Source: Sabellastarte sp. h YS-2021 (lineage: Eukaryota > Annelida > Polychaeta > Sabellida > Sabellidae). From it: DNA of 64,000 nt. Of the stretch, positions 19,537-55,314 are shown one piece after another (within the stretch, counting starts at the first letter, position 1; each line of letters begins with the position of its first letter). The notes under the pieces are model-generated. The model was not told the origin of the DNA and made no database searches. It saw nothing but the letters and a program-made list of their open reading frames with translations. Position numbers and translations under genes: made by a program. Where the stretch lies: contig OZ024927.1 in the NCBI GenBank assembly GCA_964017235.1, positions 45,513,293 to 45,577,292 of the forward strand. The letters run 5' to 3'.

Positions 19537-21577
19537 TATAGATCGGATCACTCAATTGTTGAAATACATATTGTAATAAGTAAGTTTAAAATTGGAAAGG
19601 GGATATGGAAATTCAATAAGAGTCTGCTCAAAGATTATTTAGAATTAGTTAATAAAATAATTCAAGAAGAAAAAAGTAAGTATGCACTACCAGTATATTT
19701 AGCTGAATATGTAAAAAATGAAAATGAAAACATTAAATTTAATATAGATGATGATGACTTTTTGGAGATGATCTTCCTTTGAATTAGAGGTGAAACAATT
19801 TGAAAAAGGAAACCCATATGGAAGAAAAATCTTTGGTAGTTGACATTGAAAATCTTGAAAGTTTGTCAGATAAGCAAAATTACACTAGTATACTAGAGGA
19901 CAAGAAGTTGGAATTGGAAAATTTAAGAAAAAATAAGATTAAAGGCCACATAACAAGATTGTGAATTCAGTGGTTGAAGGATGGTGAAAAACCAACCTCT
20001 TTTTTTGTAATTTGGAAAATAAGAATTGTGTTGAAAAAACAGTAAGAAAATTGGAATTAAATAATGGTTCACAGATTACAAATCAGAAAGATATTTTAAG
20101 AAATGGGTAACTTTTATAATTCGCTATTTAAAAATAGGGATCAATATACACAAAAATATCAGTTAAACAATTTTTTGAATAACTCTAAGGAGAAAAGAAT
20201 TTGTGACTCTCAATTAGGAAATAAAATTACAGCTGATGAATTAAGTAGTCCACTTAAAATATGAAAAACAATAAGTCACCTGGAATTGATGGGATTTCTG
20301 CTGAATTTTTGGAAGTATTTTGTGGTCAGTTAAAATTTTTTGTCCAGAATGCTATAAACTGCAGCTATGAAAAAGATCAGCTGTCAGTCTCACTCAGAAA
20401 GAGCATCATAACCTGTTTGCCAAAAGGTAATAAGGATAGAAAATTTATCAAAAATTGGCATCCAATTTCTCTTTTTTTTGTGTGGTATACAAGTTGGACT
20501 CTTCAGTAATTGCTGCTAGACTAAAACCCCATTTGGAACATATCATTTCTTCAAGTCAGTCACGCTTTCTAAAGGGCAGACACATGGGTGAATGTACAAG
20601 ACTTATATATGATATTATGTATCACACAGAAAAAAGAATATTCCTGGTCTACTCATGTTAATTGATTTCAAGACTCTGTATCATGGAAATGTCTGTATAA
20701 AACTTTGAACTACTTTGGCTTTGATGAAAAATTTATCAGTTGGATACAGTTGTTCAATACAAATGTAAATGCTTATGTACTTCAATCTGGCTTTTTGTCA
20801 AATCCAATTGCAATACAAAGAGGATGTAGGCAAGGGGATCCTATAGCACCTTATCTGTTTCTAATTGTAGTTGAGATACTAACCCTATTTATTGAAAATG
20901 AGCCAAAAATTAAGGGATTCAAATTGGAAAGACTATGTTAAAGTTAACCCAGTATGCGGATGACACCACTATTAAACTGGATGGAACCACAAGCTCCCTG
21001 CAGGCAACCTTAAATATATTAGAAATCTTCGGAAGTTTATCAGGTTTGAATGTAAATTGTGACAAATCAAAACTCATATGGATTGGAAGTAAAAAAGACT
21101 CCAAAGAAAAACTAAATGTGACATCTAAGCTGCACTGGGGGGACTCTCAGTTTACACTATTGGAATTAGAAATTTCAACCAATTTATCAAATATTCCACA
21201 AATAAATTATAGTAAAGCAATTTAAAAGGCTAAACATGTTCTAAACTCCTGGAGATTTAGATATTTGACACCATTTGGATAAATAACAATCCTGAAAACA
21301 TTAATTTTGTCACAATTTAATCATCTGTTTACATCAGTTGTTATTGAAAAAAAAATTCTGGTAGAAATTAACAAGATATTTTATGAATACCTTTGGAATG
21401 GTAAACCAGATAAAATAAGTAGAAATGATGTCTGTCATAGCTACCATGCAGGTGAACTGAAAATGATCAATATTTACAACTTTGAGAAATGCTTAAAACT
21501 ATCTTGGTTGAAATATATATCAAATGAAACTAAACCCTGGATTCAGTTACTTAAGCACACAGTAGGAAATCTAAGTA
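19537..21577 (+). pseudogene. L1-like reverse transcriptase, multiply broken
   Basis: End of endonuclease YRSDHSIVEI (19540), linker GKGIWKFNKSLL, then RT pieces: NNKSPGIDGISAEFLEVF (20261), RKSIITCLPKGNKDRKF, SQSRFLKGRHMGECTRLIYD (20455-20661), a deletion in the region that should hold the first catalytic aspartate (DFEKAFD), then AIQRGCRQGDPIAPYLFLI (20705-20941), LTQYADDTTIKLDGTT (20941, the catalytic ADD box kept), GLNVNCDKSKLIWIGS, and thumb YEYLWNGKPDKISRNDV (21307-21577). At least six frameshifts or stops. The frame is cut at 21577 by an insertion. Confidence 0.85.
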
Positions 21578-24423: not shown

Positions 24424-25450
24424 TAGAATTCCAATAGTTGGAGGTGACTGGCATTGTTGCACAAGGAAAGAATTGGATTCATTCTGGAAAACTGTATTTG
24501 AATATTGCAGTCAGTTCTGTGTTAGTCAACATGTGAAAACAAATGAAAATATAATGTCTTAATTCCAGCATTTGGTTCAATCCTAATATTTCAAAACACA
24601 ATTTATTTTTTCCAGATTGTTGTAAAAATGGTATTTATGTTATAGCAGATATTATAGATGAAGAAGGTAATGTGTGCAGCTTGAACAAATTAAGGCGAAG
24701 ATATGATTTTCATATTAACTTTCTTAAGTATATCACTGTAAGGAAGTCTGTTAAAAATTTATTGGGGATAATAAGATTGACAATAACTTCCAATTGATAC
24801 GGCCATACGTACCTTTTCATATGAAAGCACTCTTAACTTCAAACAAAATTAGTAAAAGTTTGTACACAAAATTTGCCAAAATTAACACCAGTCATATAAA
24901 AATAGAAACAAAGTGGAGTTTGGAACTGAATCTAGAATGCACTACTGCTATGTGGAAATTAATTTGTAAGAGCTGTTTTCAGTCAATCAATGACAATACC
25001 TTTTAATGGTTCCAGTGTAGAATCATACATAGGATAATGGTACAAAGAAATATTTAAAAAAGTGATTGTGACCAGTGTAGACTTTGTGGGGAGTGTGAAG
25101 AAACTTCCTTACATTTATTTTCTGAATACTACAAAGTACAAAACCTTTGGCAAAACATTAATAATTGGATTGAATCAAAAATTGGATTAAAAATCATTCT
25201 CAATAACACTGTGAAAACCTTAGGTTATTATATTCTAAATGAACATTTCTGGCCAGTAAATTTTGTATTGCTGATAACATGGCATTACATTTTCATCTGT
25301 GCCTTGAATGGTCATATTTCACTATTTACCAGCTTCAGAAAATAATTAAATCAAAATATGAAGAGCAAAAGATGTTACAAACAATAGAAAATTGTGGCAA
25401 AAACTTTGAAAGAAAGTGGTTAGTATGGCAAATGATTTATGATGGCATTT
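24424..25450 (+). pseudogene. L1-like ORF2 C-terminal part
   Basis: Continues the ORF2 interrupted at 21577. Recognisable pieces: IPIVGGDWHCCTRKELDSFW (24430), NPNISKHNLFFPDCCKNGIY (about 24580), a frame 24794-25006 with IKIETKWSLELNLEC and SCFQSINDNTF, and a C-terminal zinc-knuckle-like CDQCRLCGECEETSLHLF with a downstream Cys replaced (about 25065-25130). These parallel LWFNPSISRYKLFLPNW and CRLCQQSEESIEHLFVTC in the copy at 49.8-55.7 kb. Many frameshifts. A 3' tail of T-runs and 'aataaataaataaaa' follows. Confidence 0.75.
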
Positions 25451-30620: not shown

Positions 30621-31560
30621 ATGATTTCCTATGGGTTGGTTTACCATCCCAAACCTCTTGGACCAGTAATAAGCAAGTTATAAGCACTTTTAAGCTAGGC
30701 TATCCTTGTTTGACCTTGACTAAGGGGCTCAAGGTCAAATCAGACCACACCAAAAGATTCCTAGCCCATGATTTCCTATAGGTTGGTTTACCATCCCAAA
30801 CCTCTAGGACCAATGATAAGCGAGTTATTAGCACTTTTAAGTTTGGCTATCCTCATTTGACCTTGAAGGAGAGGTCCAAGGTCAAATCCGACCACACCAG
30901 AAGATTCCCAGCCCATGATTTCCTATATGTTGGTTTACCATCCCAAACCTCTAGGACCAATAATAAGCGAGTAATAAACAGTTTCAGGTTTGGCTATCCT
31001 TGTTTGACCTTGAAGGAGGGGCCCAAGGTCAAATCTGACCACAAGAAAAGAATCCCAGCCCATGATTTCCAATATGTTGGTTTACCATCCCAAACCTGTA
31101 GGACCAAGAATAAGGAAGTTATAAGCACTTGTAAGTTTGGCAATCCTCGTTTTACCTTGAAGGAGAGCCCAAGGTCAAATCTGTCCACACCCAAAGATTC
31201 CTAGCTCATGATTTCCTATAGGTTTTTTTACCATCCCAAACCTTTAGGACCAATAATAAGCGAGTTATAAGCACTTTTAAGTTTAGCTGTCCTCATTTGA
31301 CCTTGAAAGAGGTGTCCAAGGTCAAATCCGACCACATCAGAAGATTCCCAGCCCATGATTTCCTATATGTTGGTTTACCATCCCAAACCTCTAGGACCAA
31401 TAATAAGCGAGTTATAAGCACTTTTTAGGTTGGCTATCCTCGTTTGACCTTGAAGGAGGGGTCCAAGGTCAAATCTGACCACATCAGAAGATTCGCAGCA
31501 CATGATTTCCTATAGGTTGGTTTCACATTGCAAACCTGTGCAACCAATAATATGGGAGAT
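30590..31560. repeat. ~147-bp tandem array, about 6.5 units
   Basis: Units share 'ggttggtttaccatcccaaa', 'gcgagttataagcacttttaa' in shortened forms, and paired 'ccaaggtcaaat' motifs. The reverse complement array is at 36950-37970. ORFs here are repeat by-products. Confidence 0.85.
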
Positions 31561-32660
31561 ATAGACATTTTTAAAGTCCACCATGTGGGGTACTTTGGCA
31601 CTCTGTGGATGACCTTGAATTTAGAACTCCAAGGTCAAATGTCTGCAAGGTTGTAGAGGACATGTATATCTGTTATAAATATCACCTATGAAGAGATTCA
31701 ACCTTCTACCTATGAGAACCAGCCAGTAGAAAAATGTAGATAATTTTCAAAGTAATGCCCGCGGCGGCCATCTTGTTTTTCAGAATGAGGCTAATTTCAG
31801 TCTCAGAGAAGTTTACCCCCAATGAAGATGTCCTGCAAATTTGGTGAACTTAGCTGGTGTAGTTTTTCTCTGAGAGCGTTAACGCCGAAAATCTCCACGC
31901 GCTGCGGCGGCGGCGTAGCGAATGCTAAACCAAAGTATCCACCGGATGCCTCCTGTGGATACAATTATCCGTTATTTGAGACATATTGCTCAAAGACAAA
32001 TTTTTTTTAAAAGTCATGTCTGAATATTATTTTGTCATTCTTGTAACAAAAAATTGGACTGGGAGGCCTGGGTTTGATTCCCAGTGTTGTGGAACGAGAC
32101 ATCATAGCTCAGTGACAGAGCACTCAGTCTGTTATTATCTCCCGCTGGCCGATAGGCCCGGTACGAGAGATTATAAAATGCCCTCTGTCCGTGCGTCCGT
32201 CCGTCCGTGCATCCGTCCGTTCATCACGTTTTTACAAACGCCTTTCTATCTCTTAAAATATTATAGCTAGAGCTTCCAAATTTACAGGATAAATTCATCA
32301 TTGGAAAAACTTGCCTGGGAATCTTTTTCGGCTGATTCGGAAAAACAAGATGGCCGCCATGGGTGTTAACAAGATGGCTGCCATGGTTTCTTTTTCAGGT
32401 GTTCTGCCATGGGTTTTTTTTCATTGATTTAGATGGCTGCCATAAGTGTGTAGTTGCACTTTTAAACAGCCTAAAAATAGCCTGCTTGGTATTGATTTTG
32501 GGCCTATTTTGAAAAACAACATGGCCGCCAGAGCCTTTCCAAATCTCTGCAAATAGCAGAATGTAAGGCCTAAAGGTCTGTCCAAAGAAAAGTGCTGCAG
32601 GTATCCTCACCAGTTTCTACTTGGCCTTTTCAATGTTTTATGACCTTATTGCTTATGTCT
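31561..32660. repeat. mixed repeats: GTCCGTCC tract, tRNA-like pieces
   Basis: No gene. At 32066-32080 'ggtttgattcc' resembles a B box, and at 32105-32116 'tagctcagtgac' an A box; the order is wrong for one tRNA, so these are joined SINE-like pieces. A 'cgtccgtccgt' microsatellite follows at about 32195. Several 'aagatggc(t/c)gccat' motifs occur at 32345-32525. Confidence 0.5.
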
Positions 32661-36949: not shown

Positions 36950-37970
36950 GATACTTTGGTTTTGCGCTCAATCTCTTCTTAGCTGATATGTATAACAGAT
37001 ATACATGCCTTCTACAACCTTACAGACATTTGACCTTGAAGCTCTTAATTCAAGGTCATCCATGGAGTGCCAAAGTAACCCACATAGCGGACTTTAAAAG
37101 TGTGTATATCTCGCTTATTATTGGTCCTAGAGTTTTGCAATGTGAAACCAACCTACAGGAAATCATGTGCTGCGAATTTTCTGATGTTGTCCGATTTGAC
37201 CTTGGACCCCTCCTTCCAGGTCAAACAAGGATAGCCAAACTTAAAAGTGCTTATAACTCACTTATATTGGTTCTTGAGGTTTGGGATGGTAAACAACCAA
37301 TAGGAAATCATGGGCTCGGAATATTATGGTGTGGTCAGATTTGACCTTGGGCCCCTCCTTCAAGGTCAAAAGAGAATAGTCAAACTTAAAAAGTGCGTAC
37401 AACTCACTGATTATTGGTCCTTCAGGTTTGGGATGGTAAACCAACCTACAGGAAATCATGGGCTGGAAATCATTTGGTGTGGCCAGATTTGACCTTGAGC
37501 CCCTCCTTCAAGGTCAAATGAGGATAGCCAAACTTAAAAATGGTTATAACTATCTTATTGTTGGTCCTAGAGGTTTGTAATATGAAACCAACCTACAGGA
37601 AATCATGTCCGAATTTTCCGATGTTATCATATTTGACCTTGGACCCATCCTTCAAGGTCAAACAAGGATAGCCAAACTTAAAAGTGCTTATAACTCGCTT
37701 ATATTCGTCCTAGAGGTTTGGGATGGTAAACTAACCAATGGGAAATTTTGGGCTCGGAATCTTATGGTGTGGTCAGATTTGACCTGGGGCCCCTCCTTCA
37801 AGATCAAACAAGGATAGCCAAACTTTAAAGTGCTTATAACTTGCTTATTATTGGTTCTAGAGGTTTGGGATGGTAAACCAACCTACAGGCAATCATGGGC
37901 TGGAAATCCTTTGGTGTCGACAGATTTGACCTTGGACCCCTCCTGGATGCGGCCATCATGGATTTTAGCT
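36950..37970. repeat. inverted copy of the 147-bp array
   Basis: Six or seven units, reverse complement of 30590-31690, with 'tttgggatggtaaaccaacc', 'caggaaatcatgggct' and 'cctccttcaaggtcaaa'. Confidence 0.85.
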
Positions 37971-39185: not shown

Positions 39186-39480
39186 AACTTTTTTTGTCAC
39201 TTATTTGTCATTTCGGTTTTCAGTGTGGAACCAGTCCCTTCCGGAGCGAACAATTAACCAATTTGGTTATAGATGGTAGAAGGATATCAATGCATTCCTT
39301 AATAAGGAATGTGGGCAACTGGTCCAACATGCATGATTTGGTGGGTGATTTGCTGATTATTTTACCAATTTCATCCTGAGTGACTTGAGTAAAGACTGTT
39401 AATTTAGGAGGGTCAAAGGGGGGATGTACCATGTTACAGGACTCAGATGAGGAAAAACTCTCACAGATTTTCATAATTTT
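39186..39480. repeat. long target-site duplication, left copy
   Basis: Near-identical to 49127-49422, differing by a few substitutions. It spans the end of the CACTG element ('tttgtcacttatttgtca' to CAGTG at 39225) and 250 bp of CR1 coding sequence (minus: CSLRKGLVPH, CMLDQLPTFLIKECID, SSSESCNMVHPPFDPPKL). Left of it the CACTG element continues; right of the other copy the CR1 sequence continues. That is the layout of a target duplication made by the L1-like element between them. Confidence 0.75.
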
Positions 39481-39940
39481 GTAGAGGTGTCAGCATGCCT
39501 TGTGTGTGAAAATTTTGTGCTCATGCAGTTTTGCTAAATTACATAAGATATAGATATCTAAAGGAGAAATGAAGTGAATGAGTGTGGAACCAGTCCCTTC
39601 CGGAGCGAACAATTAACCAATTTGGTTATAGATGGTAAAAGGATATCAATGCATTCCTTAATAAGGAATGTGGGCAACTGGTCCAACATGCATAATTTGG
39701 TGGGTGATTTGCTGATTATTTTACCAATTTCATCCTGAGTGACTTGAGTAAAGACTGTTAATTTAGGAGGGTCAAAGGGGGGATGTACCATGTTACAGGA
39801 CTCAGATGAGGAAAAACTCTCACAGATTTTAATGATCTTGTAGAAGTGTCACCATGCCTTGTGTGTGAAAATTTTGTGCTCATGCAGTTTTGCTAAATTA
39901 CATAAGATATAGATATCTAAAGGAGAAATGAAGTGAATGA
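39222..39940. repeat. 359-bp tandem duplication at the L1 5' junction
   Basis: Unit 1 (39222-39581) and unit 2 (39581-39940) each join 255 bp of CR1 to about 105 bp of new sequence ('catgccttgtgtgtgaaaat', then 'gctaaattacataagatata'). The start of the unit coincides with the CACTG/CR1 junction. Units differ at about ten positions. Confidence 0.85.
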
Positions 39941-40576
39941 TAGAAATATATAATATGTTGTGACTATAGTGATATAATTTACAAGTGATAAAAGGATTTA
40001 GAACAGTTGAAAGGACATGTTTCTTTAGAGAAACCTTTGTGAAAAAAATATTTAATATTGTCACACAGAGTGGAAGTTCTGTCCTCTTAATAGAAATCAA
40101 TGACCATATTTGGATAGTCATAGTGAACATAAAACACTAAGTTCTTTGGGGCATTAGACCATACTGTATTGATAATAGAATTCTCCCATGCACTGGGGAA
40201 ACTTTTGTGACCTTTTGTGATTATTTCTGTGACTCCTGAAGTGAACTTATTGCCATTGCAACAAGTAACATTTTATGGTGGAGTGTCTTTTGCAGAGGAA
40301 TATCCTTTGACAGGGAATTTTTGAGTGTTTAATGCAGAGGAATATTCTTTGACAGGGACTTTTTGTGACTATTTCTGTGACTCCGGAAGTGAACTTTTTG
40401 CCATTGCAATAAATATCATTTTATGTTGGAGTGTCCTATGCACAGGAACATCCTTCGACAGGGAATTTTTGGTGGCTATATCTGTAATTGCTGAAGTAAA
40501 CATTTTTTGATGTTGAAAATACGCAACTTGTTTTTTTTATAACTTGTTATTATGTACCATAATAAATGAACACTTT
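39941..40576 (+). promoter_or_regulatory. L1-like 5' leader with monomer-like repeats
   Basis: Non-coding. About 2.5 units of a 110-146 bp repeat lie at 40195-40510, each with 'ttctgtgactcc(t/g)gaagtgaac', 'gttggagtgtc' and 'ttgacagggaatttt'. Tandem monomers before ORF1 recall the promoter arrays of some mammalian L1 elements; the promoter role is an inference. Confidence 0.5.
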
Positions 40577-41836
40577 ATGGCCAATCATAAACATTCTGAT
40601 GATTTCCACTGTTCAATGATAACACCTTCCTCTAGAAAACGAACAAAGTCTGAAAGTAGTTTAACACCAAGTCCTGCAAATCAACAGTGTTATAAATCGC
40701 TAAGAATGTTCTCACCAGGGGAAAAGCAGAATTCAGTAAGCCATTCAGACTTGCCGAAAGACTGGTCAAATTTATCACAGCATGAAAAACTTGATCGATT
40801 AATGGAAAAGCTTATGATAATTGATGACATAAAAGAAAAAGTTGACACCATTATCAAAGATAAAGATGAACAAGTGGGAAGTGACCTTCTCTTGTTGAAA
40901 ATATCATCTCTTGAGGGAAAAAACAGAAGGCTTGAAAGGGAAGTGGATCATCTAAACAGTAAACTAGAAGATCTTCAATGGAGAGACATGAGGGACAATT
41001 TGGTTTTTTCTAACATACAAGAATCTCAAGGTGAGGACTGTGAACTTCTGATTGTAAACTTTTTAAAAGAAGAGATGAACATTGCCCCAGCTCTCATTTA
41101 CTCCCAACAAAATGTATCCGGCGAGATTAGAATAGATGTTGCTCATCGTATTGGTAAAAGAAATGCTAACTCTTTTAAACCAAGAGCTTTGGTGGTAAAG
41201 TTTGTCACCCGCAAAGGGAAAGAATTTGTTCTTAAGCACGCATCTAACTTGAAGGGTAAACACTTTACTGTTTCTAACCAGATGCCAGCAGAGATGAGAG
41301 AACGTAGATCAGCACAAACTGATGCAATGAAAAATCTTAGAAAGGAACATCCAGATAGGGCTAGTCACAAAATCCATCTGATGAAGGACAAGCTCTTGCA
41401 CAATGGTAAAGTAGTTGAGCCGCCCTTTGAAAGAAATAAGTTGCCGGATCTAAATGTTCTACCAATCCGCTATGATGAAATGCTGCACTCACAACCGATC
41501 ATGCAACAGGGTAGTGTGTTCCAAGGGCATGCCATAAGCATTCACTCCATAAAAGATGCAGTACAGGCAAGAGATGCGCTATTCTAAGATGTTGATGTTG
41601 CTGGTGCTACTCACATCATGTATGCTTATCGTACAAGCAACGATGATGGCATTTGTAAAACAGGAAATTCAGATGATGGAGAATGTGGAGGAAGTTCTAT
41701 TCTTGTGAAACTGATGAGGGACGAAAAGGTCGAAAATATGTTTGTGGCAGTTTCTAGGATACACAGAGGGCCAAACCTAGGGAAAAGAAGATTTGAATTG
41801 ATAGAGCAGGCTTGTGCAGATGTACTGAAATTGTAA
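40577..41836 (+). CDS. L1 ORF1p with C-terminal UPF0029/IMPACT domain (one in-frame stop)
   Basis: Start at ATG 40577, the first methionine in the frame. Residues about 1-60 are basic and Ser/Thr-rich. A coiled coil lies about 65-140 (heptads through LDRLMEKLMIIDDIKEKVD and SSLEGKNRRLEREVDHLNS). An RRM starts at RDMRDNLVFSNIQES and reaches RIDVAHRIGKRNANSFKPRA. A CTD has MRERRSAQTDAMKNLRKEHP. This is the L1 ORF1p nucleic-acid chaperone layout. From about residue 310 it continues into VFQGHAISIHSIKDAVQARD, then ATHIMYAYRT, SDDGECGGSSIL, ENMFVAVSRIHRGPNLGKRR and FELIEQACADVL, which matches the IMPACT/YigZ (UPF0029) family across its length. TAA at 41585-41587 interrupts this domain, but the frame continues unchanged to 41836, so the stop looks recent. 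In other proteins the domain is linked to translation control and ribosome/GCN1 binding; its role here is unknown. Confidence 0.85.
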
Positions 41837-44800
41837 AAATATGGGTAATAAAAGAATATCTTAATCAGTTGCACAGAACTACTTCTTTAGAAATGCTATA
41901 ACACTAATGGCATATTAATTATGAGTACGTTGCTTAGATTTTAGATTACCATTTCAGTCTACAAGACATTTACTGTTAAAATATGCTGATCTGTAACAAG
42001 ATAAAGCAATGTATTTAAAAGTCATAATTGGTCAATATTACATTTACTATAAAAATATAAACTAATCTACAATGTTTTCATGTAAATGTTGAAATCTAAT
42101 CAACTTAATTGTGAATACTTCATGTAGCATTTAGAATACCTTTTCGGTGTAACATAAAACAATGTCCATAAAAGTTATGTTTAGGGAATGTTACATTTAC
42201 TGTTTAAAATACAATATGGTAAAACTACAGATTCTAGAATACTGTTTTGGTAACAGGACAAAGCAATGTCTTTGAAGGTCATAATTAGTGGATAACATAT
42301 GTACTGTTAAAATATACTAATCTGCAATGTTTTCATGTAAATACTGAATTTAAAAAATTTATTTGTGAGTACTTTCTTCAGGTATTAGAATACCTTTCAG
42401 TGTAACACAAAGCAATGTCTTTAAAAGTCACATGTAGTGAATGTTACATTTACTGATAAAATATACTATCATGGTATTCTGTCATGTTTTTCAAGTAAAT
42501 GTTGAAATTTAATCTTTCTTTATATTTCTACAAATGAACCAAAAATGCACAATTGTATTTTCAGATTTTCTAAAACCTTATATTGGAACTTGTTTATGTA
42601 TATGCAGATAATACAGTTTTGTTTTGGTGTTATAAAACTATCACATGAAACTTGAACTTTTAAATATGAATAGGATTTCATTGTATTTTAAGTAATCTCT
42701 GCACAGAGAACCATTGTGGAGTTATATACTGTTAATTAGAAAGTATATGATAAATATTGTATGTTTTAAGTAAAAGTGATATCTGTACAGAAAACCATTG
42801 TGGAATTATATACTGTTAATTAGAAAGTATAATGAAAAATATTGCCTATTTGCAGTCGCAATTCATTAAATTTAACAGACTTTATTATATAGTATCCATT
42901 CAGATAAATCATACCAGATGTTATAATGTTATGTCAGTTCAATCCAGATAATGCAGTTTGTTCTGCTATTATAAAACTATGGTATGAGAACTAGATCTTT
43001 TAAATATGAAAAGGGATTCATTGTATTTTAAGTAAAAGTAATATCTGTACAGAGAACTATTATAGAATTATATATTGTTAATTAGAATGTATATGATAAA
43101 TACTGTATATTTGCAGTCACAATTCATTTAACTTAACGGGATTTAGATATTATCCTTTCAGATAAATCATACCAGATACACTGTTATAATGATGTATCAG
43201 GTCCTTTTTGAGATTGTATTTAATTATTTTCAGTTCTACATGTGCTTTGAAATAAAAGTCGAAATAAGATCATATATCTAAAATTTCAGTATAATGTTTT
43301 GACATATTACTAGTTTTAACAAATTGCTAAATATATATACCAATAAGAAGAGTGTTGCTGTGGTAATAGTGTATAGTTACTTATAATGGTAATAGATAAT
43401 TCTATCTTATTGTGAAGCAGCATAAACATTCTTAGAACAAAGTCTTTTTATTAGAATTAAATTGCATAAACTAAAGGTCAAGATTATATATGCATTTATA
43501 TTTTTTTGGTTTTTATCATTTTGTTATTAAATAAAATGATTTTGGCAGCCCTGTATAGCAAAGTACAAGTATTGATGTTTAAAATGATAAAAATGAATTA
43601 ATTTTTTTGTCTTAATGTTGAAACTAAATCTGGTTCAATCGCCTCACTAATAATAATCCCAAGAATTGTGAATAATTCATTCACTAACATTGTTGATTGG
43701 GAAAGCTTATATTCATACTGTGGGTGTTAACAGCAAAATCAGTTATAGAAATGTTATATAATTTTGCATATCCTAATTATTACAGAATGATATATTAATA
43801 ATGTGTAAAAACTTTGGCCTTTCAGGATTATCAGGTATAGAGTCACGTGTACATTAAAATTGTTAACAGTAACATCTGACAACATGACTTTGTATTTTTT
43901 TGTTTATAATGGAACAATAAAAGATCTCACAGATACGATTATCTTAAGCACATATATCTTATAAAAGTATTAACTGGCAACGACTTTTCAGAGACAAAAT
44001 GCCTCAAAGATATACAACACATGAATGTCCCTATCTAATTATAGTTTACCACAGTGTATCTCTATCATTATAAATTTAGGATTAAATATCTCCTGGAAAA
44101 ATTTACAACCATATGAGATGGACTGAAATTGTTTTAATAACGGATCATCTAAATTTTGAGGAGGTACCCTAAACAAGTCATCCTGTTCTAATTTTGATAA
44201 TGATATACCGGATAATAATTTTAGATTTTAGAAGTTGTATTAAATATTTCGTATTTGCTTAATCTGCTAATGACACACTCGATAATAAATTTAACTTTAG
44301 ACTTTAGAGATGTAAATTTCTGGTAGCTACATAACCAAACATTGCTTCATAGATTTGAGTAACTGTTTGATTTTCTTTATTGAATAATTTACTGTTTTGT
44401 ATTTTGTGCATACTACATAGCATTTTTACACTCAAGTTATATGACCACGCTCTATCACCTAAGCTTGAGTATATATAATAAATCTTGCTGGTACAAGACT
44501 TTTTTGTTTGTGTTATGTTTTTTAAGCAAATGTGTCCCCATAGTATTTCTATATTTTTGTGTTAATCTGTCTTAAACATATGCTAATTATATGTGTGGAA
44601 ATCCTGTCTCCATTCTGTCTTAATAAGTGTGTGCTAAATTATGTGAGGAAGTCCTGTCTCCAAAGTCTGTGCAGCAGATTTTCATAATTTTTCTAATCTG
44701 TATGTGTTATATGTATGTTAATAGTTTACTTCACTGATAGTGATTTGTATTTTGTGCATACTGCAGAGCACTTTTACATCCAGGCTGTATGACATTGCTC

Positions 44801-45068
44801 TTTAACAATCACCTTAATTTGAGTATATATAATACCTTAATTTGTATAAACTTGTTAGTACTAGACTACTTTGTTTGTATTATATCTTTACACAAATGTG
44901 TGTTCACAGTATTTCTATATTTTGTGTCAGTCTGTCTTAAGCATATGCTAATTGTCTACGGAAGTCCTGTCTCTAAAGTCTACTTAGTTGATTTTCATAA
45001 TTATTCTAATGTTTATCATAAGAATAAATCTGATTTTCAGGGTGTAAGGAGTGCTAGTATAGATAGTT
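41837..45068 (+). repeat. 3.2-kb inter-ORF spacer of degenerate tandem repeats
   Basis: No ORF of note. Three repeat groups are visible. At 41980-42500, units of about 120-140 bp have 'aatgttacatttactgt', 'aatgttttcatgtaaat' and 'aaagcaatgtcttt'. At 42690-43140, units have 'gtacagagaaccattgtgga'-like and 'tatactgttaattagaa' phrases. At 44350-44980 there is an approximately 400-bp duplication ('ttgtattttgtgcatact', 'gagtatatataat', 'catatgctaatt'). Typical L1 inter-ORF gaps are far shorter. Confidence 0.7.
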
Positions 45069-48000
45069 ATGAGTCATATAGGAAATAGTATAAATGTGTT
45101 ATCCGCAAATTGTCAAGGTTTAAGAAATGCTGAAAAAAGAATGGATGTGATTTCCTATTTCAAAGAAACTAATGCAAATATCATATGTTTACAGGATACA
45201 CACTTAATTGAGGAAGATATGATGAATGTCAAAGGGATATGGAACAATGACATTTTTATAAATGGAGGTAAAACAAATTCACGTGGGGTGGCAATTTTCC
45301 TGAATAATAACTTTGAATATGAGGTATTATCATGCAAAAAGGATAAAAATGGAAATTATCTCAATTTATTACTAAAATTAAGCTCTATGACCATAAATTT
45401 GATAACTCTGTATGGGCCTAATAATGATTTTCCATCCTTTTTTGAAGAAATTCAAACACTATTAGAAAATGTAAGTGCTGATTATAATATCTTATGTGGA
45501 GACTTTAATGTAGCTCTAAACCCAGACCTGGATACCTGCAATTACAGACATATAAACAACCCCAAAGCTAGACAAGCTGTTTTAGACATCATGAGAGAAA
45601 ATGATTTGTCTGATATATACAGGGAACTGCATCCTAATACAAAACGATACACATGGAGAAGAAGGAATCCTGTAAAGCATGCTAGACTTGACCTCTTCCT
45701 TGCTTCTTCTAATATATTGGATATAACAAATAATTGTGAAATTAGAATTAGTTATAGGTCTGATCATTCTGTAATTGAACTTGATCTGATGTTAAATCAA
45801 TTTTCACGTGGTAAAGGCCTCTGGAAGTTTAATAATAGTCTATTAGAATGTCCTGATTATCTCAACCTTATAAATAATGTAATTGAAGAGGAGAAACTGA
45901 AATATGCAGTTCCTGTATATGATCTTAGCTACTTGGAAAATAATTGTGCCAAATTTGAAATGACAATAGGACATGACTTGTTCTTAGAAACATTGCTTCT
46001 TCGAATACGAGGGGAAACAATCAAATTTGCCTCAGTACAAAAGAAAAATATTTCTCAATTTGAAAAACAGTTATTATTTGATATTGAAAATCTTGAAGCA
46101 AAAGACCCATTTTGCACTTTAAACTCTACATTACTGTTGGATAAGAAGGCAGAATTAGAAAGTATAAGGGGTAAAAAAATGAAAGGTCAATTTGTTAGAT
46201 CACGACTACAGTGGTTGCAAGATGGAGAAAGACCCTCAAGTATCTTTCTGGCCTTGAAAATAAGAACTTTATTGAAAAAACGATAAAGAAAGTTAAACTC
46301 GATAATGGAGATGTTATAACTGAGCAGGACGAAGTGCTTCACCAAGTTCAAAAATACTATGTTAATCTTTTTGAAAATCGAGATGACAAATTGCAAGAAA
46401 TAAATTTCGAAGAGTTAGGTATTAAATCCGATATAAAAGTACCAGACGAAGATATTGGTTTACCTTTCACTGTAGAAGAATTGGGCCAAGTTTTGAAAAA
46501 AATGAAGTCAAATAAAACACCTGGCATTGATGGAATTACAACCGAATTCCTCAAAGTCTTCTGGCAAAAATTAAAATACATTATCACAAATGCATTAAAT
46601 TGTGGCTTTTCAAAAGGATGTTTATCAACGTCACTCCGCCAGTGTGTTATAACATGTCTCCCTAAGGCCAATAAAGATAGAGCACTTGTCAAAAATTGGC
46701 GCCCTATTTCTCTGCTAAGTGTCATTTATAAACTGGCATCAAGTGCAATAGCAGAAAGACTTAAAAAAACTTTGAACCCAATTATTTCAAACTGTCAAAC
46801 GGGTTTCATTAAAGGGAGGTTTATAAGCGACTCTACAAGATTGGTTTATGACCTTCTACATGCAACAGAAACTAAAAACATAGCAGGACTTCTCATGCTC
46901 ATAGATTTTGAGAAAGCCTTCGATTCTCTTTCATGGAAATTTTTATATAATGTTCTGGAGTTTTTTGGATACAGTAAAAACTTTATTAAATGGATCAAAC
47001 TTTTTAACACTGATATAACGGCATATGTCATACAGTGTGGTTTCTTGTCAAAACCGATAAATGTTAGGAGGGGTTGTCGGCAAGGTGACCCAATTTCAGC
47101 ATACTTGTTTCTAATCGGGGCTGAGATTTTCTCTAGGCTCATTCAAATTAACCCAAATATAATTGGAATAAAAGTTGAAAACATGGAATTTAAACTAACA
47201 CAATTTGCGGATGACACAACATTAATACTTGATGGCAGCCAGCACTCCTTACAATCAGCCTTAAATACTTTAGAAATATACGGAAATATATCAGGTCTCA
47301 AAATGAATAAAGAAAAGACTAAGGTAATTTGGATTGGTCGGAAAAAATTTTCAAAGGATAAACTTAATGTCTCTGTGGATTTGGAATGGGGATGTACAGA
47401 TTTTACACTACTGGGTATAGAATTTTCAACAAATTTACCTAAAATAATGGAACACAACTATGCAAAAGCTTTGGAAAAAATAAAGAAATTGGTTAAAATG
47501 TGGAATAGTAGATATTTGACACCTTTTGGCAAGATAACTGTCATTAAGACAAATGTCTTATCACAGTGTGTTCACCTGTTATCCTCGGTACAAAGGTCTG
47601 ATTCATTTCTTAAAGCAGCGAACAATATTTTATATAAATTTTTATGGAATGGAAAACCTGATAAAATTAGAAGAACCACCGTTTGTTCAAATTGCATGCA
47701 AGGGGGTTTGAAAATGATAAATATAGATAATTTTGAGAAAGCACTTAAAGTAAGCTGGGTTAAGAAATTAATTACTCAACCAAATTCTCAATGGTATAAA
47801 CTTTTGGAGGCAATGTATGGTAATATTGACCAAATTGTAACATTTGGAGATAAATGGTACAGTAAAATTCTCCCGAAAATACACAATCAATTTTGGCAAA
47901 ATATATTGAAGGACTGGAATGTCCTAGTCAAAATACAAAAACCCAAGAATAATTCAGAAATATTTAGAAATTGTCTTTGGTACAATTCTTATATTTCAGG

Positions 48001-48897
48001 AACCATGCCATTTTTTCCAGACTGGTACAAAAAAGGTATTTACTTGGTTGGGGATATCATTTCTCCAGACGGTAACATTCTGACTATTAAAGAAATTAAG
48101 TACAAATTTAACTTTAATCCAAACATTTTAAATTACTATTCAATTAAAGTTAAAATACAGGATTTTATGTCAAGCGTAAACTTTCAGGTTATTGGACTCT
48201 TGAAAAACCTACATATCCCTTCCATTTAGATGTGCTTTTTAGATCCAAAAAGGGATGCAAGAAATTTTATGATATTTATAATGATTTGGGAACACAAAAT
48301 GATAATCCAATTTGTGAAACCATGTGGTCTAAACTTGTTTCTAATGAGAACTTAGAAATTACTTTAAAAGAAAGATGGGAATCAATTTACAAAATTTGTT
48401 TTTACTCTGTACTTGACAATAACTTAATTTGGTTTCAATACAGAGTGTTATTTAAAATCTTAGGAACCAAAGATTACTTAAAAAAATTAAAACTAAACAT
48501 GAATAGTCAATGTTTGTTTTGTAAGCAATATGAGGAAGATTTGGAACATTTGTTTTGTAAATGTGGAGAAGTAATAAAATTGTGGGAAAATGTCAGGCAG
48601 TGGATCTCTAATAAACTTGGATTTAACCTCATTATAACCAAACTCATGAAAATACTTGGTTATTTAACAAATGATGAAAACTTTTGGGCATTAAATTTAA
48701 TACTAATGGTTACTCGAAAATATATATTTTGGTGTTCAAAAAATGGCTTTATGCTAAATATTTATTTTCTCCAAAAGGAAATTAAAAAAACATTTTTGGA
48801 ACAAGAGACGTTAAGTCAGGTAAATTTGCGTTTTGACCAATTTAACCGAAGATGGAATTTTTGGAAAAACTTTTTTGAAGGAATTGAGATACAGTGA
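45069..48897 (+). pseudogene. L1-like ORF2 (endonuclease, RT, zinc knuckle), two frameshifts
   Basis: Three frames join into one ORF2. Frame 1 (45069 to about 46240): APE endonuclease with VLSANCQGLRNAEKRM, IICLQDTHLIEED, DYNILCGDFNVALNPD and SYRSDHSVIELDL, then a linker to RLQWLQDGERPSS. A one-base deletion near 46240 moves to frame 2 (to about 48229): RT with PGIDGITTEFLKVFW, KNWRPISLLSVIYKLASS, LLMLIDFEKAFDSLSW, RRGCRQGDPISAYLFLIGAE, LTQFADDTTLILDG (catalytic box intact), GLKMNKEKTKVIWIG, then thumb FLWNGKPDKIRRTTV. A second shift around 48190-48230 gives frame 3 (to 48897) with the C-terminal knuckle CLFCKQYEEDLEHLFCKC. All catalytic motifs survive. It nicks target DNA and reverse-transcribes the element's RNA. 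Confidence 0.92.
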
Positions 48898-49126
48898 TGT
48901 TTTGATAGTATTTTCTACTTTGTTTTCAGTCAGGACTTGCATATCTCCCAAATACTTTTTCATTGGTAATTTTCTAGTTAGAAATTCGGATACTTAAACC
49001 TTTCGAGGTTATTAATTAAAATATTTCTGGACTGTGAAAATAAGTTTGTTTTGTTTTCCACAAGATTTTGTATGGATTGTTAAAGAACTGTATTTTATTT
49101 GTTAAAAAGAAATTTAAAAAAAACAA
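48898..49126 (+). other. L1-like 3' UTR and A-rich tail
   Basis: Non-coding, ending 'aaatttaaaaaaaacaaaa' directly before the right copy of the long duplication. Confidence 0.6.
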
Positions 49127-49422
49127 AACTTTTTTTTGTCACTTATTTGTCAATTCGGTTTTCAGTGTGGAACCAGTCCCTTCCGGAGCGAACAATTAAC
49201 CAATTTGGTTATAGATGGTAGAAGGATATCAATGCATTCCTTAATAAGGAATGTGGGCAACTGGTCCAACATGCATGATTTGGTGGGTGATTTGCTGATT
49301 ATTTTACCAATTTCACCCTGAGTGACTTGAGTAAAGACTGTTAATTTAGGAGGGTCAAAGGGGGGATGTACCATGTTACAGGACTCAGATGAGGAAAAAC
49401 TCTTACAGATTTTCATGATTTT
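49127..49422. repeat. long target-site duplication, right copy
   Basis: Partner of 39186-39480. It carries the same CACTG element end (CAGTG ending 49167) and CR1 sequence, then runs without a break into the upstream CR1 linker at 49423. Confidence 0.75.
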
Positions 49423-49793: not shown

Positions 49794-50303
49794 TTGACTC
49801 CCCCAAAACTGATTCAGTTTCTGAAAGCAAATCCCACATCAATAGCGGGGTATAAAATAATCATTGTCCATACAGGTACAAATTGGTTAAGTGGAAAAGA
49901 GGAATGGGGCTTCTACATAAAGCTTGTGAATTCGGTAATCACAAAAGAAATGTATGAAGCCAAACTGAAAAGTCTAAACCCCCCACCAGCTGTAGGCACG
50001 GCACAAAAACTCAAAGAAACATTTCAGGAGTTGTTAGACCTAATAAAGACCATCAACAAAGAAGTGACAATCTTAGTGTCATCTATAATACCTGAAATGT
50101 GGGACCATGATTGGCGCCATTTAGTACGAATTAGTTACAACCAAATCTTGAGAGGTTTCAATGGCCAGTCAATTATATTTTTTATACCATCCTACAAGCC
50201 CGTTTTCGACAAAAACCTAAAAACAGACCTTTTCGACCAAGATGGCTTGCACTTCTCAAACAAAGGCGCTGTGGTCTTGAGAACCTTTTTTTGTGAAAAA
50301 TAG
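49794..50303 (+). CDS. SGNH/GDSL hydrolase-like ORF1 domain, 5'-truncated
   Basis: An open frame of 169 codons without an ATG at its start. It begins within the first bases of the insertion, so the N-terminus was lost by 5' truncation. KIIIVHTGTNWLSG matches the GxxN block of SGNH hydrolases, VTILVSSIIPEMWDHDW the following strand, and LFDQDGLHFSNKGAVVL the C-terminal DxxH block with its catalytic Asp/His. The nucleophile GDS block would lie in the missing part. Esterase domains of this kind occur in ORF1 proteins of some CR1-type LINEs and other retroelements. It precedes an L1-like ORF2 inside one target-duplication-bounded insertion. The upstream partner domains are unknown. Confidence 0.75.
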   Translation: MTPPKLIQFLKANPTSIAGYKIIIVHTGTNWLSGKEEWGFYIKLVNSVITKEMYEAKLKSLNPPPAVGTAQKLKETFQELLDLIKTINKEVTILVSSIIPEMWDHDWRHLVRISYNQILRGFNGQSIIFFIPSYKPVFDKNLKTDLFDQDGLHFSNKGAVVLRTFFCEK

Positions 50304-51716
50304 ACAAATGTTTCGAGGGAATGTTAAAATAATTTTCACAAGGAAACTGTTCAAAATCAGATCCAGTAAAATTCATAAAAATCAAAGTGTCACTCGTATG
50401 TTGTATGTAATGAGCCAAGATAAATATATACTAGTGCAAAAATATAAGAAGACGAAACTAGAGGTTCAAACTTTCTGTCAAACTGAATATGGGATTAAAA
50501 CCCCTTTTCTATAGTAATCTAGAAAAAGTCTATGCCTGGTTGCTGCGTGTCCGCCAAAATAGGGCAATTAAAATGGAAATCATAGTACTGTCACTGAAGG
50601 AATGTTAATTTGTAGTGTTTTAAATGACTAGATACGGTTATATGAGATTACCGAGAATAATCATCAATTGTACTATATTAAGTTAAGGCAGTGTTTCACA
50701 AATGTTGTAAGTAGTATGACGTATGTTGTAACATTTGTTTAAATGACTAGACAAGGTTATATGAGGCTACTGAGATTAATCATAAATTGTATTATATCAG
50801 TTAATCCAATATTCTTAATTATTGCACGCAGTACCTAACCACTGGTCGATTATTTATGATTTATTTTGTGTTAACTACTTCTCTTGTCTAGTAACTGAGT
50901 CCTGTCACTGAAGTAGTGATAACTTGCAGTGGGATCCAAAAATGATCGTATTATATGAAGTATGTCTGTAACATGTGTTTAAATGTCTAGACACGGTTAT
51001 ACAAGACCACTGAAATTAATCATAAATGGTGTTGTAGCAGTTAATCCAATATTCACAATTTTTGTACACAGTAGCAAACCACTGGTTGATTACTTATGAT
51101 TTATTTGGTGCTAACTACTTTCTTGTCTAGTAACAGGGTCCTGTCACTGAAGTAATGATAACTTGCAGTGGGATCCAAAAATGATCAGGAAAGGGGTAAA
51201 AGTATAATAAAAGGTATATCAGAAGAGAATCTTGACACTGAAGTAGTGATAACTTGCAGTGGGATTCACAGCAGCAAAACTTTTAATAAGTATGTCCATG
51301 ACATAACTTGTAGCATGTGTTTAACCAACTGGATAAGGTTATTGAGACTACTGTGATTAAGTATAAATTGCATTTTATCAGTTAGGCCAGCATACAATAA
51401 TGTTAGATGCATATCCAATATACTAAAGAACCACAAAGGAAACCACAAAGTGAGATGGAGCTGTAGGGTTATAAATCAATATCTACTATTCTCTCCAGGT
51501 CTCTTCCAAGATGGTCACTACTTCTTTTGTATTTACCATATTATTATATTGTACATGTGTTTCTGTTTTGTTGTTCAGTTACTTCACTTTATCAAAGTAA
51601 CATATACACACTATTGATGATTCAGTCCAAACCAATCGCAGCTAAGGTAGGGAGACAACAATGTTTCTTTTGTCTCCAGAGTTAAAGAGGGGTGAGCCAC
51701 CTAAAACAAAACCAAT
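50304..51716 (+). repeat. 1.4-kb inter-ORF spacer with ~242-bp repeats
   Basis: At least two full and two partial units: 'gttatatgag(a/g)(t/c)tac', 'taatcataaattgtattata', 'cagttaatccaatattc', 'ggtcctgtcactgaagta' and 'gataacttgcagtgggat' recur near 50640, 50750, 50980 and 51240. No ORF is supported. It parallels the spacer at 41837-45068 in position, not in obvious sequence. Confidence 0.7.
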
Positions 51717-54700
51717 ATGGAAAATTTAATTAAAGTGTTGTCAGCAAATTGTCAAGGCTTACGATATATTGCAAAAAGGACTGATGTACTAAACTATTTA
51801 CGAAGTATGGGTGGCAATATTCTATGTTTGCAAGAAACTCATTGGTTGGAAAGCGATTGGTAGCCTTAAAAACATTTGGAAAGGAGATTGTTTTATAAAT
51901 GGCTCTAAAACCAACTCAAGAGGGGTTGCAATACTGATTAGTCCAACATTTGAATATACTGTATCCAACATACTTGCAAATAATGAGGGAAACCTGTTAT
52001 CAGTTGACTTAAAATTAAACGATACAAGTATACGAATAATAAACGCATATGCGCCGAACATTGATAGCCTGCAATACTTAAAAAATATAGAGAGTCATAT
52101 ATTATCAACTGAAATAGAATACATATTACTAGGAGGCGACCTAAATCTTATACTAGACCCTAAACTAGACTGTGACAATTACAAACAATATTAATAATCC
52201 AGTAGCACGGAAGGAATTATTAGAAATAATAGAAAAAAAATCATTTATGTGATATTTGTAGAAAACTAAACCCTTTAAAAAAAACGCTATACTTGGAGAA
52301 GGAAAAACCCTGTGAAACAAGCACGTTTAGACTACTTCATCGCCTCATCCCCATCTAGATATCATAAGCAGCTGCAACATCAATCCAGGATATAGGTCAG
52401 ACCACTCTATTCTAGAACTAAATATAACACTTTGTAATTTTAAAAGAGGAAAAGGAGTATGGAAATTCAACTGTTCTCTTCTAAAACACAAAGAATATTT
52501 AATACAAATGAATAATGTAATAGATGAAGAAACGGTTAGATATAAAATGGAGTTTAAAAACTGCGATATGAGCTGCAGTGGTAATATTGACTATAGCCTC
52601 TTCCTAGATGTATTATGATTAAGATTAAGAGGAGAAACAATTAAATACTCGGCGACTAAAAATAAGAAGCAGTCAAAAAGGGAAGAACAATTAATTAAAG
52701 AAATTGAAGAAATAGAAGCAAACAATATTATCGATTCTAACCTTGAAAACAAAAAAAAGAACTAGGGAAATATTCTTAGGGAAAATAAAATGAACGGCAT
52801 TGGAATAAGATCAAGGGAAAATTGGTTAAAAGATGGAGAAAAGGCATCAAAATTCTTCTGCAATCTAGAAAAACATAATTACACAGAAAAAAGTATAAAA
52901 AAATTAAAAGACAATGATGAAAATAACATCTATAATCAAAAATCAATCCTAACAGAAATCAAAAATTTTTATGAAAAAGTATTTGCTGAACAGAAAAGTG
53001 AAAATGAAAAACTAGACTTGAAAGCCTTAATGAAAAACTACAATTTACCATGATTAAATAAAAACAATGTGAAAAATTTAGAGGGAAAGTTGACTCTAAT
53101 AGAAATAAGCGAAGCTTTAAAACATATGAAGAATGAAAAATCCCCTGGTATAGACGGCTTCCCTGCAGAGTTCTATAAGATTTTGTGGAAAAAATTAACA
53201 CATATTATACTAAATGCAAAAACTGGCGACCAATAGCACTACTATCCGTGATGTACAAAATTGCATCGGCAGCAATAGTGAATAGATTAAAAAACATTTT
53301 GGAAAATATAATACCAAATAATCAAAGAGGATTTCTAAAAGGCAGAAATGTTAGTGATTGCACACGCTTAGTCTACGATACTATGCATGTAGAGGAACAA
53401 AATATACCAGGGCTACTTCTTTTAGTCAATTTCGAAAAGGCATTTGATTCAATATCGTGGAGCTTCCTAAATGAATGCCTAAAAGTTTTAGGCTTCAGAA
53501 ATGGCTTTATTCGATGGATTAGCACTTTTAACACTGAAATCTACGCATCTATCCTCCAATGCGGCTATCTCTCCAACCCAATACATGTAGGCAGAGGATG
53601 CAGACAAGGTGACCCAATAGTTCCTTACTGTTTTATCATTTGCTCTTTTTTTCTTACAGCTATGGTCAATCAAGATAAACTAGTTAAAGGAATAAAATTG
53701 GACAAAGAGGAAGTAAAGATAATACAATTTGCTGATGACACTACTATTTTTCTAGATGGTACAGAAGGCTCACTCCAAAAAAACACTTAATATAATAGAA
53801 ACTTTTGGAACCTATTCTGGTTTGAAAATGAATAAAGATAAGTCAGAACTAATATGGCTTGGTAGGAAAAAACACACAAAAGAAATTTTATGTAAAAACT
53901 CGACTTTCTCTTGGGGAAAGACAGATTTTAAACTACTAGGTATTACCTTTTCAACAAATTTGGAAGAAATACCCACAAAAAATTATGATCCCCTTCTCAA
54001 GAAGGTATCTCAGTTTAAAAATTTATGGAAGAAAAGAATCCTAACTCCAATAGGAAAAATAACAGTATTGAAAACTATTATTCTGTCAAAGTTTATCCAC
54101 CTGTTTCAGTCTTTACCTCCACTCCCAGATCACCTAATTAAACAAATCACAAAAATAATGTTTAACTTTATATGGGATGGTAAACCAGATAAAATTAGTA
54201 GAACAACACTAGTACAAGATAAAGAAAATGGAGGTATGGAAATGCTAGATCTAGTGAGTTTCATAAAGGTACAAATAAACTAGGTCAGGAGACTACTAAG
54301 AACCATAACCCAATGTGGAAAAAGGCCAACACAAACAGCATACCATCAACAGAGAAACTACTGTGCTTTGGAGCCCAATGGCGAATGAAAATTGCAGGTC
54401 AAACAAAAAATCCTTTCTGGAAAGGTATTTGGAATACATGGGCTGAATATCTGAATAAGTACAATTCAAATCTCATGCCAGAGAACATAGAATCAGCCCC
54501 TTTGTGGTTTAACCCAAGTATTTCCAGATACAAACTTTTTTTACCAAATTGGTCCAAAATTGGACGCTTTGTATTAGATGTCATAAACCAAAACGGAGAC
54601 TTAATGTCAAAAATGGAAATAGAGACAACTTATAACATTAAAACCAATTTTTTAAAATATATGCGAGTCCACAAAAGCGTTAAAAAATTTAAGGGGGCTG

Positions 54701-55314
54701 CAAGTAAAACTAAATATGGGCCTATATACCCATCAAATGCTCTAGCCATAGGGACACACTTAAAAGGTACAAAAAAATTTCGAAAAGTCCTCACAGATGT
54801 AAATAAGGACCTAAATGAAAGTCTGTCAAAAAAGTGGGATCAGAAACTTAATGTGGTGATAACAGGAAAAGATTGGTCAAAAATATTCAAAAACTGTTTC
54901 AATACAATACAAGATAACAACCTGATTCGGTTCCAGTATAGAACTATATTTAGAATTCTAGGAACACAATCACTAAGGAAAAAATGGGTAAATGTGCTAG
55001 CAACATATGTAGACTTTGTCAGCAATCAGAAGAAAGTATCGAACATCTGTTTGTTACCTGTGAACATTGAAAAAAAACTATGGGCGGATATAAAGCATTT
55101 CAGCTCTATTAACCAAATTGGAGAACTTAGCATAAAACCAGAAAATATTTTATTGGGAGAATGGAACGAAAAAGAAGCTTCAAGTTATATAATTTATTTA
55201 ATCACAAAGCATTACAGTTTTGACTGTACAAAGAAAAAATCGATTCCAAACTTTCATAGACTGCAGCTATACATAAAAAAATATACACTGAACAGGAGTT
55301 CTTACATAAAATAA
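51717..55314 (+). pseudogene. L1-like ORF2, multiply frameshifted with RT deletion
   Basis: Starts with ATG at 51717 (LIKVLSANCQGLRYIAKRT, ILCLQETHWLESDW then stop). Later pieces: GGDLNLILDPKLDCDNYKQY (endonuclease, GDLN instead of GDFN), RYTWRRKNPVKQARLDYF, LKDGEKASKFFCNLEKHN (52790), KSPGIDGFPAEFYKIFW. About 110 bp are then missing before KNWRPIALLSVMYKIASA (53215). RT core: LLLVNFEKAFDSISW (first catalytic Asp replaced by Asn), VGRGCRQGDPIVPYC, IQFADDTTIFLDG. Thumb: FIWDGKPDKISRTTLV. The C-terminal frame is 54313-55314; the knuckle CRLCQQSEESIEHLFVTC lies in another frame at about 55005-55060. Confidence 0.88.

Follow-up and report, generated by a model that had tools for sequence, protein, structure and literature searches.

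A LINE ORF1 of L1 type fused in frame to a UPF0029 domain

The ORF1-UPF0029 reading frame

The 64,000-nt stretch of Sabellastarte sp. DNA analysed here (the window) contains one decayed copy of a LINE family of the L1 superfamily, in which ORF1 reads in frame into a UPF0029 domain, and we are nearly certain both of this anatomy and of selection acting on it. What the domain does is proposed more tentatively, at somewhat short of even confidence: UPF0029 may serve ORF1 as an RNA- or ribosome-contacting module of the ribonucleoprotein (RNP).

The frame occupies 40577-41836 on the plus strand and is broken only once, by a TAA at 41585-41587. Re-reading of this interval confirmed the frame, the motifs and the lone TAA that the earlier note had described from the letters. 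The frame encodes an N-terminal tail and coiled coil (residues 1-136, 40577-40984, plus strand, assigned by profile similarity), an RRM and CTD of L1 type II (residues 137-296, 40985-41464, plus strand, assigned by the RRM-CTD profile and the profile of plain relatives described below) and the UPF0029 (IMPACT/YigZ) domain as an in-frame fusion (residues 312-419, 41510-41833, plus strand, assigned by PF01205 and the motif residues). The earlier note had proposed comparison of the translation with Pfam UPF0029, and PF01205 indeed matched 41588-41833 with E = 1.1e-13 and 51.6 bits against a cut-off of 27, covering positions 31-107 of the 107-position profile. Scanned alone against Pfam, the stretch of 28 residues ahead of the stop (41501-41584) did not reach E = 1. 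Intact relatives match profile positions 2-107, as P0004 does at residues 313-418 (E = 4.8e-16, 59.1 bits), and UPF0029 therefore spans the stop of the window copy. Of 16 relatives scanned, 15 had PF01205, and the one without it was the window's own protein truncated at the TAA; PF01205 scored 98.7 bits in P0024 and 91.6 bits in the genomic copy L029.

The TAA (41585-41587, plus strand) is common to the window copy and L010, in which it is one of three stops in UPF0029, whereas 10 of 11 further copies contain no stop across the aligned UPF0029 stretch (L011 contributing 93 residues only to this count). L009 is nearer to the window copy than L010 is (98% vs 91%), yet lacks this TAA. Such a distribution could arise if the same change occurred twice, or if the source copy did not have the whole UPF0029; in the latter case the domain can be lost.

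Assignment of the ORF1 part to LINE-1 ORF1p

The label of L1 ORF1p given in the earlier note proved correct by the RRM-CTD profile of relatives, but the window sequence alone gave it no Pfam family: the 336-residue ORF1 part had no hit at E <= 1, and PF02994 (Transposase_22) was not among the matches listed (25 of 50) for 22 relatives, nor for the genomic copies L021 and L029. The profile that carries the assignment (A6) was built from 11 sequences without the coiled coil, of which six were plain and five belonged to the fused lineage. Its four best matches in PDB were the four LINE-1 ORF1p entries, 2ykp (E = 2.5e-6), 2yko (3e-6), 2ldy (5e-6) and 2w7a (5.1e-5), and the next best match stood at E = 0.18. 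In addition, a profile made from 16 plain relatives, with no fused protein in it, matched the window's ORF1 with E = 2e-38.

Other profiles were less telling. The profile of fused proteins alone (A2) reached LINE-1 ORF1p at E = 0.15 and 0.4, and a profile of plain relatives (A5) listed nothing but coiled coils at E <= 1e-4. Profile A4 matched 2ykp with E = 2.8e-9, partly through the coiled coil, and 548 chains passed E = 0.5 with it; its match to the window ORF1 (2.9e-78) was discarded as L1 evidence, because A4 contains the window's own protein and the comparison is circular. The predicted coiled coil 5' of the RRM is indicated by profile matches to coiled-coil chains, such as 5apu (E = 6.4e-4), and by many such chains with A4. 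Compared with LINE-1 type II ORF1p (2ykp), the window protein is alike in RRM and CTD homology and in the coiled coil before the RRM, but has about 108 extra residues, which are UPF0029 and place it outside ORF1 types I-V as set out in the available part of PMC4120745. No other ORF1 of this type was found within the window.

The LINE insertion

The whole LINE, consisting of a 5' UTR, ORF1-UPF0029, a spacer, ORF2 and an A-rich 3' end, lies at 39481-49130 on the plus strand, as delimited by flanking repeats and by copy L010. The flanking repeats are 292 bp long, direct and 98.6% identical, the left copy at 39189-39480 and the right at 49131-49422, starting after the A-rich end. They resemble a target-site duplication, but 292 bp is long for a target-site duplication of a LINE, and the pair could instead be another kind of local duplication. 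Two tandem 359-bp units at 39222-39940 each consist of 259 bp of the target repeat and about 100 bp of the element's 5' end; as the unit holds both the target repeat and the first 100 bp of the element, it was probably doubled by a local duplication after insertion.

Downstream of ORF1-UPF0029, the inter-ORF spacer (41837-45068, plus strand) contains diverged tandem repeats, whose order is the same in L009 and L010. It is followed, all on the plus strand, by the N-terminal part of ORF2 with an L1-type endonuclease (45069-46286; PF03372, E = 2.9e-8; LINE-1 ORF2p 8uw3, E = 2.3e-34), the reverse transcriptase (46211-48229; PF00078, E = 2.6e-32), which is frame-shifted relative to the endonuclease part, and a C-terminal zinc-binding part in the third frame (48154-48897; PF13966 zf-RVT, E = 3.2e-8), so that the window's ORF2 has two frame changes. 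Endonuclease and reverse transcriptase are thus contained in one inserted unit with an A-rich 3' end and flanking repeats, as in a LINE. L010 aligns with the window over 40452-49127, with gaps, and its flank diverges past the A-rich end; L011 aligns to the 5' part of the element from 39499/39858. The flanking repeats, L010 and 9 of the 11 copies described below ruled out that ORF1 and ORF2 belong to separate elements. Rfam and tRNA scans gave no match.

In the L009 copy the spacer is interrupted by a 3.26-kb insert (L009:5778-9042, on contig C8), which lies where the window has 43218-43226 and is accompanied by a short target duplication. Near its ends lies an inverted pair, ATATCCCCAGAC / GTCTGGGGATAT, and the insert is perhaps a DNA transposon.

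Copies in the genome

A DNA search of the 1.79-Gb genome with the domain (307 bases) returned 11 places including the window, the other ten being 65-98% identical, and a further copy with a more divergent fused ORF1 was met inside L013, giving 11 near copies beside the window. ORF1 and UPF0029 occur together in all 11. An ORF2 or part of one follows on the same strand, 0.9-6.6 kb from the domain, in nine of the 11 (L009 with L012, L010, and L013-L019), where L013, L015 and L016 reach the end of the sequence compared inside ORF2 and L010 is without the endonuclease part; in the adjoining DNA examined, L011 and L020 had no ORF2 of their own. L018 and L019 retain one open frame through ORF1 and UPF0029, of 408 and 421 codons. 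The divergent fused ORF1 at L013:1325-2365 has a UPF0029 with a KYGG loop nearer to that of cellular proteins, and its ORF2 lies 0.9 kb downstream.

A genome search with PF01205 gave 481 candidates, of which 150 were scored and all 150 were above the cut-off. Among the 30 best (L021-L050), the ORF1 core was found on the same strand in 25 and in the same open frame in 20, and no ORF1 core was found within the 3.3 kb examined at L025, L030, L037, L043 and L047; these genome counts, with the best 30 of the 150 scored places inspected, are lower bounds. The places belong to a second lineage. P0024 is its nearest relative (33-37% identical among those compared), and the UPF0029 of this lineage lies nearer to that of cellular proteins (91.6 and 94.7 bits in two full copies of 545-546 residues). 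A 545-codon ORF1-UPF0029 frame is identical over 1635 bases at six loci (L029, L031, L032, L033, L035 and L036), which sit on contigs C3, C5, C6, C7, C14 and C18; L028 differs by one base, and L021, L022 and L024 are identical in core and domain. Copies identical across contigs indicate that the second lineage moved recently. ORF2 was present in both second-lineage copies traced downstream: at L028 an endonuclease lies 1.9 kb downstream of the fused frame, and at L046 a whole but interrupted ORF2, its main pieces 36-47% identical to the window's, lies 1.4 kb downstream. The ORF2 of the L028 copy stops after the endonuclease and is followed by open frames of 268 and 652 codons (L051:3179-5998), which look like another inserted element.

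One rival explanation, in favour of which stands the stop in the UPF0029 of the window copy, is that the fusion is a chance event confined to this copy, by insertion or by joining to a host gene, or that it arose in assembly. The earlier note had named copies without the domain as the sign of such a one-off event. The eleven near copies, the 25 of 30 best UPF0029 places and the 17 of 41 proteins with the fusion (see below) refute this explanation, and its probability is negligible. As all these genomic copies were found through UPF0029 itself, they do not tell how many ORF1s lack the domain.

Related proteins

The fusion extends to protein records. A search with the window ORF1, with X at the stop, found 17 proteins including the window's own, and 15 of them carried a precomputed PF01205; the two others are P0002, which is the window's protein cut at the stop, and P0013, whose letters show it leaving the common frame ahead of the domain. 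When the ORF1 part alone served as the profile query, 32 proteins were found. When both searches were combined, 41 proteins were obtained, of which 17 carry UPF0029, two NADAR (PF08719), one PF13125, and 21 no precomputed domain, some of these 21 being short pieces. The search for ORF1 proteins joined to UPF0029 that the earlier note had suggested thus brought up the fusion in 17 of 41 proteins. The plain relatives with a species name come from bivalves (Pinctada imbricata, Tegillarca granosa, Ostrea edulis, Saccostrea echinata and S. cucullata). The UPF0029 of P0010 is the same as that of copy L020, and P0010 therefore comes from the window's genome or a near one. A search by the UPF0029 domain alone gave two protein matches among 37 candidates, and a scan of viral contigs gave 49 pattern matches and no relatives.

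In the two NADAR proteins, P0037 and P0042, the NADAR domain (E = 7.5e-23 and 8.8e-28) is C-terminal to the CTD, in the place of UPF0029, and follows the same ORF1 core, which matches the core profile with E = 1.1e-33 and 1.5e-32. Because NADAR fills the same slot in relatives, a serious rival to the RNA- or ribosome-contacting module is that UPF0029 is a counter-defence or RNA/protein-repair module, the ORF1 C-terminus being a slot for domains that block or undo a host response. We know of no enzymatic activity of UPF0029. The NADAR rows have long branches and no firm place in the trees, however, and no host response was identified; we regard this rival as rather unlikely. NADAR has also been reported in ORF1s of several Crassostrea gigas Tx1 LINEs, found by querying Repbase, in the part of PMC12477816 available to us. 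Those ORF1s are like the window's in the kind of element, in the core (as judged by P0037 and P0042) and in having an extra C-terminal domain, which there, according to the same part of that paper, is NADAR (YbiA family) and here is UPF0029. The NADAR relatives and the C. gigas report suggest that the window LINE may belong to the Tx1 clade.

Selection on the UPF0029 domain

The earlier note had proposed dN/dS across element copies as a check, and the comparisons indicate purifying selection. Between the window copy and L014, pS was 0.882, and pN was 0.213 in UPF0029 and 0.27 in the ORF1 core; the UPF0029 differences fell on the three codon positions in numbers of 26, 20 and 68, highest at the third. 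Across comparisons of the window copy and L009 with L014-L020, pS was 0.875-0.904, and pN was 0.210-0.239 for UPF0029 and 0.261-0.290 for the core (L010 was left out of the pN/pS count, and L011 of its core part). L009-L011, which is not saturated, gave a dN/dS of 0.31. In the second lineage (L021, L029, L039 and L046), pN of UPF0029 (0.178-0.263) was lower than that of the core (0.269-0.392) in all six distinct pairs, with pS of 0.74-0.85. Low pN against high pS therefore indicates purifying selection on UPF0029. As a counter-result, in comparisons with L013, which is the most diverged copy, pN of UPF0029 was 0.44-0.49, no lower than the core in every pair (0.468 for UPF0029 vs 0.450 for the core in L020-L013, for example). 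Young pairs were noisy or near neutral (L014-L019, 1.64; L015-L018, 0.13), as expected because copies decay after insertion.

UPF0029 was also the best conserved part of the protein, with a mean pairwise identity of 0.520, against 0.459 for the RRM-CTD and 0.391 for the N-terminal part (the latter from 66 of 120 pairs). Identities of UPF0029 track those of the core (Mantel r = 0.86; none of 2000 permutations as high), both comparisons being made on 16 of 17 rows, with P0013 dropped. The correlated identities and the low pN indicate that UPF0029 has been inherited with ORF1 and selected at the protein level. The fusion is found in several subfamilies of the LINE, where it passes on as a unit with the ORF1 core and ORF2.

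The motif residues shared by eukaryotic and bacterial UPF0029 (H, A, DDxE, R...G...G) are present. All 17 fused domains, from which P0024 was counted apart, retain seven motif positions, and 16 of the 17 retain R100; each of these residues is also present in three cellular proteins. Most main-lineage domains have lost the first G of the RxxGGxxLG loop, which L021, L029, L039, L046, L042 and L050 retain; P0024, P0018, L013 and the second lineage have a GG loop as cellular proteins do. These patterns bear on a further explanation, that UPF0029 is mainly a stable structural cap, making the ORF1p trimer larger or more soluble or giving it further oligomer contacts. Its place at the extreme C-terminus and the fact that ORF1p works as a trimer would suit a cap, but the most conserved residues are the motif residues common to bacterial and eukaryotic UPF0029, which points to a preserved binding face, and we judge a mainly structural role unlikely.

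Origin of the domain

The best solved relative of the domain is 6bqi ('Protein IMPACT homolog'), matched with E = 1.5e-4 by the window piece alone and with E = 1.1e-16 by a profile built from 16 relatives. The two remain homologous for about 15 residues ahead of the conserved FQGH, beyond the N-terminal limit of the Pfam domain, which fits an IMPACT-like donor; we infer that the domain was captured from an IMPACT-like cellular protein together with the stretch preceding it and without RWD. The window family thus shares with IMPACT/Yih1 the UPF0029 (ancient) domain and the stretch just before it, but no RWD was found and the domain is fused to ORF1p instead. RWD was not found in the window ORF1 at E <= 1, nor in the 16 relatives (several lacking the N-terminus) or the two full copies at E <= 0.1. 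An RWD search of the genome gave six places, none within 1 Mb of a listed UPF0029 place (the nearest being about 1.4 Mb away, on C1), and a host IMPACT gene was not found among the 150 scored of the 481 UPF0029 candidates. The domain has its motif residues in common with YigZ and TTHA1053 as well, but TIGR00257 (YigZ) scored 27.7 bits for the window and 21.8, 35.1 and 49.4 bits for others, against a cut-off of 167.95.

In ORF1-core trees, the main carriers of UPF0029 form one side of a branch with support of 100/97 and 96/99, and all carriers lie on one side of another branch (85/92 and 82/94). The core tree was made without nine duplicate, short or odd rows (P0002, P0020-P0023, P0036 and P0039-P0041), and a later one also without P0028. 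The placement of all carriers on one side in the core trees favours a single capture of UPF0029. In domain trees, 6bqi falls among the P0024-like domains, and P0024 groups with 6bqi with support of 97/92, 88/79 and 97/83, or 50/58 with six further copies added; a single clade of all fused domains was not rejected against the domain trees (p = 0.265, 0.158, 0.138 and 0.189).

The relation to IMPACT raises the explanation that UPF0029 dampens the integrated stress response through GCN1/GCN2 and thereby favours translation of the LINE, a link to stress signalling which the earlier note had also drawn. The domain is related to the IMPACT homologue 6bqi (E given above), and Yih1 and IMPACT associate with ribosomes and Gcn1 in the account given in part of PMC4503747. 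The available parts of PMC7140605 and PMC4503747 further describe that Yih1 competes with Gcn2 for Gcn1, that the Yih1 RWD overexpressed alone impairs growth under amino-acid starvation, and that substitutions in RWD helix H3 reduce Gcn1 binding. However, the RWD, whose helix H3 thus matters for Gcn1 binding, was not found in the window ORF1, the 16 relatives or the two full copies, and the same parts of these papers describe a region of Yih1 that suffices to bind Gcn1, actin and ribosomes and that overlaps a determinant which includes the linker joining the RWD to the ancient domain. GCN1/GCN2 was accordingly dropped as the default function for lack of RWD, and we consider this explanation improbable. 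Evasion of stress signalling by the fused domain is at best conceivable.

A candidate role in the ORF1p RNP

LINE-1 ORF1p forms trimers that bind RNA and coat the element's own RNA. The UPF0029 fold is grouped with the ribosomal protein S5 domain 2-like proteins, among which contact with RNA is common. As an RNA- or ribosome-contacting module, UPF0029 would act as follows. ORF1p would coat the LINE RNA through its coiled coil, RRM and CTD, and the resulting RNP would display several copies of UPF0029, whose conserved face may contact a conserved RNA-linked partner (the ribosome, tRNA or the LINE RNA, the partner being a guess); such contact might help the RNP to be translated or assembled. We favour a contact linked to RNA or the ribosome because relatives with the S5 domain 2-like fold often touch RNA and because the face is conserved. 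The function of UPF0029, there the ancient domain, is called unknown in the available parts of PMC7140605 and PMC4503747, and the latter locates its invariant features to loops that share one side of the domain and proposes conserved molecules as binding partners.

The earlier note knew of no described L1 ORF1 with this domain, and none was found in the papers searched, most of them open-access; a note confined to Repbase is possible. The part of PMC4120745 available to us does not mention UPF0029. That part does provide a precedent for a cellular domain in a LINE ORF1, in the esterase-bearing (type IV) and PHD-bearing ORF1 of CR1/L2 LINEs, although those domains and clades differ from those of the window LINE. 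ORF1s with accessory domains were therefore already known, and what is new here, by the papers searched, is UPF0029 as an accessory domain of a LINE ORF1.

UPF0029 and NADAR suggest that LINEs collect cellular functions at the ORF1 C-terminus. It is conceivable, if doubtful, that this C-terminus is a recurrent docking slot for such domains, through which a recently active LINE lineage acts on translation or on RNA-directed defence of the host. If so, UPF0029 would have been selected for a defined process, the function of a retrotransposon RNP, and this would offer a handle on a domain that has no assigned function from bacteria to animals. A selfish element has taken in UPF0029, kept it under selection and spread recently, which ties the domain to retrotransposition, a measurable process, and its retention suggests that it helps the LINE copy itself.

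Other elements in the window

A GDSL/SGNH-hydrolase-like ORF at 49794-50303 (PF13472, E = 2.5e-5, under the curated cut-off), possibly another type of ORF1 with an esterase-like domain, is followed 1.4 kb downstream by a second, related LINE ORF2 (51711-55302; its pieces 26-54% identical). A third ORF2 of the same group, interrupted, occupies 18100-25318. The window also contains a 147-bp satellite array at 37094-37944 and, about 5.4 kb away, an inverted array of the same unit at 30621-31668.
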